The notes under the pieces: model-generated
Told to the model about the DNA's origin: nothing
The model's input: the letters and a program-made list of their open reading frames with translations, nothing else
The model's database searches: none
Source of the DNA: Verrucomicrobiota bacterium JB022
Lineage (GTDB): Bacteria; Verrucomicrobiota; Verrucomicrobiia; Opitutales; Oceanipulchritudinaceae
Direction: 5' to 3'
Length of the DNA stretch: 64,000 nucleotides
Assembly: GCA_030673845.1 (NCBI GenBank)
Contig: JAUTCQ010000015.1
Span: 1-64,000 of the forward strand
In this document: positions 9,810-13,017 of the stretch, one piece after another
Layout: every line of letters begins with the position of its first letter
Position numbering within the stretch: position 1 is the first letter of the stretch
Program-made: the position numbers and the translations under genes

Positions 9810-9871
9810 CGCGGGCGGGGTGACGTGCTTTCCGGCTCGCAAAAACGCGGAAGATCGTGCAGGTTATGGGC

Positions 9872-10087
9872 ATGAAATTCGTCCTCCCGCTCGACCAGAT
9901 GACCCGCGAAGAGAAGCTCGAAGCCTTGGAGCTGCTCTGGACGGATTTGACGGGCGAGGCAGCAGAGCACGAGGCGCCGGCATGGCATGAGGATGTTGTG
10001 AAGGAGCGCCTCCGCCGCTTCCGTGCCGGGGAGACGACTGGTTATACGCTGGAGGAAATCGAGGAGCATTTCAGCCAGCGCGGATGA
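9872..10087 (+). CDS. Antitoxin of the addiction-module (TIGR02574-like) family
   Basis: A 71-residue acidic protein: EEKLEALELLWTDL, then a region ending in EEIEEHFSQRG. This arrangement is typical of the small unstable antitoxins paired with ParE/RelE toxins. Starts at GTG 9857, ATG 9866 and ATG 9872 are possible; AGG 8 nt before 9872 favours that one. Its last codons overlap the toxin start (ATGA at 10084), as is usual for such pairs. Confidence 0.82.
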   Translation: MKFVLPLDQMTREEKLEALELLWTDLTGEAAEHEAPAWHEDVVKERLRRFRAGETTGYTLEEIEEHFSQRG

Positions 10088-10380
10088 AGGTCATCGTCTT
10101 GCCTCCAGCTCGTCGCGATCTCGACGAGGCCTATTCCTTTTATGAGGAGCAGAGCCGTGGGTTGGGCGGCTATTTCGTCAGCTCTGTTCTGGCTGACTTT
10201 CGTGTTTTGAGTGGAACGGCTGGGACGCATCGCCGAATCTATGGCGCTCATCGCCTCCTCACAAGGCGCTTTCCCTACGCGATCTTCTATGCCGTCGAGG
10301 ACGGAGTGGTTTCTGTGCTGGCAGTTCTGGACTGCCGGATGGATCCGCGCCGCATGGCCGAGCGTCTCCGCTCTTCCTAA
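10084..10380 (+). CDS. RelE/ParE-family toxin
   Basis: A 98-residue toxin with the family pattern: PPARRDLDEAYSFYEEQ (N-terminal helices), RRIYGAHRLLTRRFPYAIFY (central strands) and VLAVLDCRMDP (last strand). ParE members poison gyrase and RelE members cut mRNA; the sequence alone does not decide between them, but pairing with a TIGR02574-type antitoxin leans to ParE-like. Translationally coupled to the antitoxin. Confidence 0.85.
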   Translation: MKVIVLPPARRDLDEAYSFYEEQSRGLGGYFVSSVLADFRVLSGTAGTHRRIYGAHRLLTRRFPYAIFYAVEDGVVSVLAVLDCRMDPRRMAERLRSS

Positions 10381-11632: not shown

Positions 11633-11665
11633 CAAAAAATGTCCCTCGAATGATCGAGGGACATT
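11633..11665 (-). terminator. Minus-strand intrinsic terminator in the leader of peptide gene 1
   Basis: A 12-bp perfect stem (AATGTCCCTCGA 11638-11649 with TCGAGGGACATT 11654-11665) and a 4-nt loop. Read leftward, it is followed by a run of six T. On the plus strand no T-run follows. No annotated minus-strand gene lies just to the right, so it most simply ends an antisense RNA over the peptide leader. Confidence 0.7.
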
Positions 11666-11772
11666 GGGTTCTATAAAGTCTAACCTTCAACTGGAGGTGC
11701 CGTATGAACGAATCGTTTATACTGGTATTGGCGCTCCTGATGATCTTGCTCATCATTAGGGAAACAAACCGG
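11633..11772 (+). repeat. Duplicated small-peptide unit, copy 1
   Basis: This unit (A-tract, hairpin, leader with GGAGGTGC, start and first 23 codons of a peptide ORF) recurs at 12681-12815. In the 69 nt of aligned coding sequence there are 11 differences. The two units flank the ABC ATPase gene as direct repeats. Confidence 0.85.
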
Positions 11773-11844
11773 GGAACCTTCAATAAAGTTACGATACCTC
11801 GGGTAGACGTAGATTCAAGACTATTTGCCTTATGGCAGCTTTGA
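11704..11844 (+). CDS. Small hydrophobic peptide 1 (46 aa), paralogue of the gene at 12747
   Basis: The ATG at 11704 follows a strong ribosome binding site (GGAGG, 6-nt spacing to the start region). The first 23 residues are MNES, then a run of about 14 hydrophobic residues (FILVLALLMILLII), then RETNR. Nineteen of these 23 residues match the second copy, and 7 of the 11 nucleotide differences are synonymous, which supports real translation. After residue 23 the reading frame lacks the stop found in copy 2 and runs on to 46 residues, ending 13 nt inside the ABC ATPase gene. Likely a single-pass membrane peptide. Family not recognised; size and layout resemble type I toxins such as Fst or TisB. 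Confidence 0.6.
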   Translation: MNESFILVLALLMILLIIRETNRGTFNKVTIPRVDVDSRLFALWQL

Positions 11845-12617
11845 TTGATGTGCAGGGGCTGACGGTGCGCCGCAGCCCGACGACGATTCTCGACCAGATC
11901 GACTGGCGGGTGGAACGTGGGCAGCACTGGGTGTTGCTCGGGCCCAACGGCAGCGGCAAGACGAGCCTGCTGCAGGCCTTGACCGGCTACCTGACCCCGA
12001 CTGCCGGGAAGGTGGAGGTGTTCGGGCAAGTTTATGGGCGCAGCTACTGGCCCAGCCTGCGCGAGCGGGTGGGGGTGGTGAGCGTGGCGCTGGCCCAGCA
12101 GATCCAGGGCGAAGAGACGGCGGTGGAGGTGGTCGCGAGCGGCCGCTTTGCCATGCTCAACTTCTGGGGCGAGCTGACCCCCGCGCTGGTGGCCGAGGCC
12201 GAGGCGTTGCTGGAAGACTTGCACGTGGGCTACCTCGCCCGGCGCGAGTGGCGTCTGCTGAGCCAGGGTGAGCGGCAGCGGGTGATGACTGCCCGTGGCC
12301 TGATGAGCCAGGCCGAGCTGCTTTTCCTCGACGAGCCTTGCTCGGGCCTCGATCCGGTGGCGCGCGAACGCTTTCTGCGCTGGCTGGAAGGCGTGCTGGC
12401 CCGTCCGGAAAGCCCGGGCGTCGTCCTCGTGACGCACCATCTGGAGGAGGTGGTGCCCGGCATCGAGCACGCGCTGTTGCTCGGCAAAGGCGTCAAGATC
12501 GCCTGCGGCCCCTTAGCGGAAGTCCTGCAACCGCACCTGCTGAGCGAGGCCTACGGCGCCGAAATCGGCATCCTGCGCGAAAACGGTCGCTACCGTCTGC
12601 AGGTGAAGGGTTGCTAA
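11832..12617 (+). CDS. ABC transporter ATP-binding protein (stand-alone, ModF/YlmA-like)
   Basis: A 261-residue ABC ATPase with Walker A GPNGSGKT (37-44), signature LSQGE (143-147), Walker B LLFLDEP (163-169) and a switch His in VTHHLEE. No permease or binding-protein gene lies nearby. The sequence resembles soluble ATPases of the ModF/YlmA type, whose roles are poorly defined. The start overlaps the end of small peptide ORF 1 by 13 nt, so the two may be translationally coupled. The gene is flanked on both sides by copies of the small-peptide unit. Confidence 0.88.
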   Translation: MAALIDVQGLTVRRSPTTILDQIDWRVERGQHWVLLGPNGSGKTSLLQALTGYLTPTAGKVEVFGQVYGRSYWPSLRERVGVVSVALAQQIQGEETAVEVVASGRFAMLNFWGELTPALVAEAEALLEDLHVGYLARREWRLLSQGERQRVMTARGLMSQAELLFLDEPCSGLDPVARERFLRWLEGVLARPESPGVVLVTHHLEEVVPGIEHALLLGKGVKIACGPLAEVLQPHLLSEAYGAEIGILRENGRYRLQVKGC

Positions 12618-12664
12618 AGGTGCAGGCCTACTGAACTTAGGTTCAGCAATTTACATTGCATCCT

Positions 12665-12742
12665 CACCTCTAGAGGGTTACAAAAAAATGTCCCCCGGAA
12701 TGGGGGACAAGTTCCAAATGTAGTAACCCTTAACCGGAGGTG
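12665..12742 (+). promoter_or_regulatory. Leader fold that can hide the ribosome binding site of peptide gene 2
   Basis: CACCTC (12665-12670) can pair with GAGGTG (12737-12742), which contains the Shine-Dalgarno core. GGGTTAC (12675-12681) can pair with GTAACCC (12723-12729). The small hairpin 12689-12709 sits inside. Translation would be blocked when the two helices form. Confidence 0.5.
12682..12709 (-). terminator. Minus-strand intrinsic terminator in the leader of peptide gene 2
   Basis: Stem TGTCCCCC (12689-12696) with GGGGGACA (12702-12709) and a 5-nt loop. Leftward it is followed by seven T. It sits at the same place as the terminator of copy 1. No T-run follows on the plus strand. 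Confidence 0.7.
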
Positions 12743-12810
12743 CAGTATGAACGATCCGTTTGTACTGGTATTGGTGCTTCTGATGATCTTGCTTATCATC
12801 AGAGAGACCA
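12682..12810 (-). ncRNA. Putative cis-antisense RNA over peptide gene 2
   Basis: Inferred from the minus-strand terminator at 12682-12709, as for copy 1. It would overlap the ribosome binding site and part of the ORF. Both copies share a minus-strand TAYAAA box just inside the ORF (about 12757-12762 here), but no good -35 box is seen. Boundaries are uncertain. Confidence 0.35.
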
Positions 12811-12827
12811 ACCGAGATCGGCGGTAA
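12747..12827 (+). CDS. Small hydrophobic peptide 2 (26 aa)
   Basis: The ATG at 12747 follows GGAGGTGCAGT. The peptide is MNDP, then about 14 hydrophobic residues (FVLVLVLLMILLII), then the charged tail RETNRDRR, and it stops at TAA 12825. One short membrane helix with a basic C-terminus is expected. Compared with copy 1, most codon changes are silent. The ribosome binding site can be sequestered from both sides (12665-12681 and 12857-12870). No known family is recognised; a type I toxin-like membrane peptide is the leading idea, and a small regulatory membrane protein the alternative. Confidence 0.65.
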   Translation: MNDPFVLVLVLLMILLIIRETNRDRR

Positions 12828-12833
12828 CTGATC

Positions 12834-12870
12834 CCGCCCGGACGGAACCCGGGCGGCCTCCAGTTAAGGG
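12834..12870 (+). promoter_or_regulatory. Downstream hairpin and fold-back element of peptide gene 2
   Basis: CCGCCCGG (12834-12841) and CCGGGCGG (12849-12856) form an 8-bp stem just after the stop codon. Directly after it, CCTCCAGTTAAGGG (12857-12870) is complementary at 13 of 14 positions to 12727-12740, which contains the ribosome binding site. This is comparable in logic to the 3' fold-back of hok mRNA. Confidence 0.5.
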
Positions 12871-13017
12871 CTATCATACGTTTTGTGCCTTACAAATCAA
12901 GTCCCATGTGTAATACAGAAAGCACCTTTGGGCTGTTGGCGGGAGTATTTGCCATTGACAAGCGTCTCCGATTCCAGTTTTTTGCCCGTTTTTCACCATT
13001 TCAACTTTGACCGTAGC

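Follow-up and report, generated by a model that had tools for sequence, protein, structure and literature searches.

A probable type I toxin–antitoxin-like module with a message predicted to be folded shut in a Verrucomicrobiota bacterium

The hok/Sok systems of plasmid R1 and its chromosomal relatives make use of an antisense RNA and are associated with mobile elements. The hok mRNA adopts an inert fold in which the Shine-Dalgarno (SD) sequence is hidden (PMC6733600), and a comparable strategy is found in the aapA/IsoA systems of Helicobacter pylori, where a membrane peptide of ~30 aa with a positively charged C-terminus is encoded in several genomic copies, its full-length mRNA is locked by a 5′–3′ pairing that hides the SD and an antisense RNA is made from the opposite strand (PMC6733600, PMC8309996). 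In the Ibs/Sib systems of Escherichia coli a very short hydrophobic peptide is encoded in repeated units of ~140 nt and the Sib antisense RNA overlaps the whole ORF and the ribosome binding site (PMC4147584); IbsC lacks the positively charged C-terminus that many membrane-targeting type I toxins possess (PMC8309996). According to a 2025 paper, type I toxin–antitoxin systems had been recorded from no phyla other than Proteobacteria, Firmicutes and Tenericutes before the cyanobacterial candidate that it describes, msoT1/msoA1 of Microcystis (PMC12390103), and a search of the open-licence literature found no report of such a system in Verrucomicrobiota.

The locus considered here lies in a stretch of 64,000 nucleotides from the Verrucomicrobiota bacterium JB022 (hereafter the window) and is probably a type I toxin–antitoxin-like module, made of a short single-pass membrane peptide and an antisense RNA. 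The window holds two homologous copies, the only ones found in the 4.35-Mb assembly; a third, divergent homologue (L004; 22 aa, MIELIIVLLLILLILREDRRER) is carried on a prophage of “Puniceicoccaceae bacterium 5H”. Copy 2 (12747–12827, plus strand) encodes a peptide of 26 aa (MNDPFVLVLVLLMILLIIRETNRDRR; 26 codons) with a single hydrophobic segment and a charged C-terminus. The ORF of copy 1 (11704–11844, plus strand) is 46 aa long; its residues 1 to 23–24 are homologous to those of copy 2, the remainder is divergent and its end falls 13 nt inside an ABC ATPase gene. As stated in an earlier note on this DNA, each ORF has a GGAGG (11693–11697 and 12736–12740, plus strand), located 6 nt before the ATG in both cases.

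That the peptide frame is under coding constraint is indicated by comparisons that, like those of RNA structure below, are few in number and concern three members in two genomes. Recalculation returned the values of the earlier note, namely 19 identities in the first 23 residues of the two window peptides and, within codons 1–23, 11 differences in 69 nt, seven of which are silent (null mean 3.6, p = 0.025); upon extension to codon 24 the ratio becomes 7/13 (p = 0.06). The description of the two genes as near-identical holds for a stretch of 91 nt (11681–11771 and 12724–12814, 85% identity), to which a 15-nt block at the A-run/hairpin can be added, but not beyond codon 23, after which copy 1 diverges; the 3′ end of copy 2 is absent from copy 1. 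As to the conservation of the frame in relatives, on which the earlier note had made its proposal depend, the frame is kept both in copy 1 and in the divergent L004: 9 of the 14 aligned core codons differ between copy 2 and L004, and the 13 nucleotide differences are distributed over codon positions 1, 2 and 3 as 7, 0 and 6, none thus affecting the second position. Furthermore, all three members display a stretch of ~15 residues with a hydropathy of 3.4–3.5 followed by charged residues, so that the short hydrophobic peptide under coding constraint generally expected of a type I toxin is found by sequence comparison.

The 5H genome (G001 and G564, in which the homologue has identical contig coordinates) also offers a sister locus. 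There the aroB–ABC–rpsP segment is preserved with ~80% DNA identity and both copies are absent, the aroB stop directly overlapping the ABC start and the ABC–rpsP spacer being ~255 bp shorter. Either a gain in JB022 or a loss fits this comparison of two genomes, loss in 5H being possible. In JB022 the end of the copy 1 ORF overlaps the start of the ABC ATPase gene (11832–11844), which has no SD of its own there, and the translational coupling of the ABC gene may have shifted from aroB, as in the 5H arrangement, to copy 1. This overlap of 13 nt and the lack of an SD would suit leader peptides or attenuators controlling the ABC ATPase and rpsP genes that lie downstream, an explanation that is nevertheless highly improbable, since both copies are missing from the sister locus, where ABC and rpsP remain, and the prophage homologue occurs in a different context; a leader with a regulatory role should remain linked to the gene it controls. 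The absence of both copies from the sister locus and the presence of a homologue on a prophage support a module of the toxin–antitoxin type and its mobility.

L004 is found ~320 bp downstream of a tRNA-Ser gene and is followed by an HTH gene, with tail genes on the other strand; this neighbourhood places it at the edge of the prophage. Upstream of it lie two 16-bp palindromes, GTTCATTTTTATGAAC and GTTCAATTATCTGAAC, whose centers are 32 bp apart (1378–1425 of L004, corresponding to 2624–2671 of contig G001:C24) and which, beside the HTH gene, are possible operators of a phage repressor.

The RNA of copy 2 is predicted to fold with an energy of −90.7 kcal/mol (z −6.6) and that of L004 with −112.9 kcal/mol (z −12.0), and in both predicted folds the leader, GGAGG included, pairs with the terminal part of the 3′ region. 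In copy 2 the two arms of this SD-locking helix are located on the plus strand at 12724–12740 (CCCTTAACCGGAGG) and at 12857–12873 (the anti-SD arm, CCTCCAGTTAAGGG); the L004 counterparts are CCAAACATAAGGAGG and CCTCCTATGTTTGG. Between the two members the SD core is constant and the outer helix consists mostly of other sequence in which complementarity is nonetheless retained, the pattern expected from compensatory change. A 3′ hairpin (CCGCCCGG-N7-CCGGGCGG; 12834–12856, plus strand) precedes the 3′ arm and is almost identical in the prophage homologue. The complementarity between leader and 3′UTR, expressed as an ungapped-type alignment score, was reached by only 3 of 5000 shuffles in copy 2 and by 1 of 5000 in L004; this score was used because shuffled sequences also pair well in an energy-based test of the leader/3′ duplex, which was uninformative, 62 and 99 of 1000 shuffles being equally good. 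The SD is predicted to be unpaired in 0.1–0.2% of the full-length RNA (0.2% in copy 2), a figure that rises to 30–47% in copy 2 and to 64–90% in L004 when the 3′ end is trimmed. Thus, long-distance 5′–3′ pairing that locks the SD, as in aapA/IsoA, is predicted in copy 2 and in L004 and not in copy 1, where complementarity comparison found no 3′ partner for the SD and the predicted fold holds it in a local hairpin instead.

The start codon, too, appears to be masked. In copy 2 it lies in a hairpin of ~11 pairs, including G-U pairs (12743–12767, plus strand), and in both window copies this hairpin is continuous on the mRNA strand and interrupted on the minus strand, which is evidence that the element is kept for the mRNA. 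None of the trimmed forms is predicted to open it, so that removal of the 3′ end may not be sufficient to switch translation on. On the basis of the predicted folds, the SD lock and the AUG-masking hairpin are features that go beyond the earlier note.

Could the structured unit instead be on the opposite strand, with the plus-strand ORF as its by-product? Such a non-coding RNA of ~185 nt, acting on other targets, would be bracketed by a promoter-like site (12900–12873) and a strong terminator (12709–12682) on the minus strand, whose predicted fold has z scores of −8.0 (copy 2) and −11.3 (L004). Furthermore, the minus strand of copy 2 forms a slightly better locking helix than the plus strand, so that some of the structure may be there for the antisense RNA. 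This explanation is nonetheless quite unlikely, as open frame, SD and start are kept in all three members, copy 2 and L004 show 13 differences of which none touches a second codon position, the two window copies differ with an excess of silent changes, their AUG hairpins are broken on the minus strand and Rfam gives no match at the gathering score in the window, the matches at E up to 10 being at chance level.

The prediction of an antisense RNA starts from the leader hairpins. Read on the minus strand, the hairpin of copy 1 (11665–11638; feature 11633–11665) has a 12-bp stem and a T run, and that of copy 2 (12709–12689; feature 12682–12709) an 8-bp stem followed by T7, the latter reading on the plus strand as the 5′ leader hairpin. 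Under strict requirements (no fewer than 8 perfect pairs, with 6 or more T in 8) the window contains eight terminators, three on the plus and five on the minus strand, compared with none in shuffled sequences, and the two leader hairpins represent two of these five; neither is followed by a T run on the plus strand. These results bear out the earlier note, according to which the hairpins end in T6 or T7 on the minus strand only and are maintained by a compensatory T-A to C-G change, which is indeed present between the two copies. Since the genes examined around both copies (aroB, ABC ATPase, rpsP, trmD and rplS) all run on the plus strand, no protein gene is apparent whose transcription these minus-strand terminators would end. 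The prediction of antisense RNA terminators, made for both window copies, does not extend to L004, whose leader hairpin of 20 bp has no T run and is therefore not a canonical minus-strand terminator; a role of the leader hairpin as a 5′ stabilizer is possible.

Concerning promoters, a minus-strand site of copy 2, TTGATT-16-TATGAT (12873–12900), matches 9 of 12 consensus positions, shuffles of the region containing on average 0.3 such sites, and sits just outside the SD-locking helix; the site of copy 1, TTGAAT-16-TATCGT (11791–11818, minus strand), is weak (8/12), being one of four such sites in 300 bp. The terminator and this one modest match (9/12) point to a likely copy 2 antisense RNA of ~185 nt, which would run from 12867 to 12682 and span the whole gene. 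On the plus strand no clear promoter was seen at the copies and no canonical terminator at their 3′ end, points that speak against the toxin–antitoxin reading.

A stabilizing leader hairpin would also suit a small non-toxic membrane protein or accessory phage peptide, for instance a holin-like peptide or a regulatory subunit, whose mRNA is tightly controlled and which has no antisense RNA. The missing T run of L004 makes the stabilizer role compatible with all three members, and the homologue is a prophage gene whose neighbourhood includes an HTH gene and, upstream, paired palindromes. This alternative appears unlikely, however, in view of the strict minus-strand terminators (T6/T7) of both window copies, for which no minus-strand gene is evident, and of the fact that an mRNA whose 3′ end locks the SD is what has been described for type I toxin messages (PMC6733600).

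The type I toxin–antitoxin-like reading would entail the following sequence of events. The full-length mRNA would be made in a closed, translationally inert form, with its 3′ end on the SD region and the AUG in a hairpin; trimming of the 3′ end would open the SD; and an antisense RNA, transcribed from the other strand and terminated at the leader hairpin, would bind the opened messages and block their translation. In copy 2 this RNA would probably begin at the 3′ side of the gene and cover the whole message. In this scheme the toxicity of the peptide, the 3′ trimming and the existence of both transcripts are inferred parts. The type I toxin–antitoxin locus proposed by the earlier note has gained the prophage homologue, the SD lock, the AUG hairpin and the presence/absence pattern in the sister genome, its weaker points being the antisense RNA, the leader hairpin of L004 and the equivalence of the two copies.

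How close is the module to the described systems? With aapA/IsoA it shares the short membrane peptide with a charged C-terminus, the multiple copies and, by prediction, the locked mRNA and the opposite-strand antisense RNA, but in copy 2 the promoter-like site with the best match is located past the 3′ end of the gene, predicting coverage of the whole gene, whereas IsoA3 is only 80 nt long and has its −10 box inside the ORF; furthermore, no sequence relation with AapA is recognized. A very short hydrophobic peptide, repeated units and, by prediction, antisense coverage of ORF and ribosome binding site recall instead Ibs/Sib, but the charged C-terminus sets the present peptides apart from IbsC, as does the predicted lock of copy 2 and L004 from Ibs, for which no description of one was found (PMC4147584). 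The predicted inert fold with hidden SD, the predicted antisense RNA and the association with a mobile element are as in hok/Sok, the peptide being here much shorter and unrelated and no overlapping mok-like frame having been identified. Like msoT1/msoA1, the locus combines a short ORF with a predicted antisense promoter and terminator outside the classical phyla; the cyanobacterial system has a different peptide and was experimentally tested (PMC12390103), whereas the present locus is known from sequence alone. Searches with the peptide gave no match in Pfam (E up to 1) or NCBIfam (E up to 10), the Hok and Fst families included; peptides so short often escape such models. By analogy, the best fit is a module that would work like aapA/IsoA, hok/Sok and Ibs/Sib, with no match that would assign it to any of them. 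Most likely it represents a new type I toxin–antitoxin family, and the suspicion of the earlier note that the family may be undescribed agrees with the lack of Pfam, NCBIfam and Rfam matches.

The family is most likely of narrow distribution. The search of Verrucomicrobiota for peptide and hairpin advocated by the earlier note, performed on 388 genomes of the phylum by pattern, RNA model and profile, added only the 5H homologue. Indeed, the 3′-hairpin pattern gave sensible matches only in the genome of origin and in 5H; the RNA model, run also on 17 genomes of the family, recovered the three known members, the rest, including a TatA-like gene, being judged chance matches; and a profile of four peptides yielded no new member among the 388 genomes, its best additional match having neither SD nor lock. 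No match was returned by tblastn of the peptide against phages and plasmids, where the low-complexity filter probably masks the query; 44 further viral pattern matches include nothing resembling a member, and a weak similarity in Gordonia phages, within a protein of ~100 aa, is unrelated. A high-GC viral contig (L129, 1067–1123, minus strand) carries a 19-aa ORF, MDPLSLLLILLILRETNRR, with an SD and ending in RETNRR. It looks like a relative of the peptide, homology and convergence both being candidate explanations; its RNA has no comparable lock in the predicted fold, and neither the 42 genomes and records behind the loci examined nor 297 genomes of the class of one of these genomes yielded another copy.

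A type I family in Verrucomicrobiota would, if confirmed, extend these systems to another major lineage. It would also add what looks like an independent instance of the SD-locking mRNA known from aapA and hok, one that can be compared with a divergent relative on a prophage. This suggests that a folded-shut mRNA may be a general, searchable signature of toxins where searches by peptide sequence fail.

As judged from the predicted folds, copy 2 is the intact module and copy 1 lacks the 3′ lock. Copy 1 looks altered because of this lack and because its reading frame extends into the ABC gene; the locus is thus duplicated, as the earlier note held, in the sense of two homologous copies and not of two equivalent modules. 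Over 17 nt, the 3′ arm of copy 2 shows 82% complementarity with the SD region of copy 1, and the predicted antisense RNA of copy 2 matches copy 1 at 85%. A speculative and very unlikely scenario is that phage-borne addiction peptides entered the chromosome twice and that copy 1 now acts as a translational leader of the ABC ATPase, silenced in trans by copy 2; a toxin–antitoxin pair would then have become a regulatory circuit of the host.

Two observations concern the surroundings. About 40 bp before the copy 2 leader lies GAACTTAGGTTC (12633–12644), the only GAAC-N4-GTTC palindrome of the window; approximately one is expected per window by chance, and the idea that palindromes near these genes are SOS boxes was abandoned. 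Upstream of aroB, a type II toxin–antitoxin pair (9857–10377; Pfam Unstab_antitox and ParE) is likewise absent from the 5H locus, which brings to three the addiction-type inserts within ~3.1 kb.
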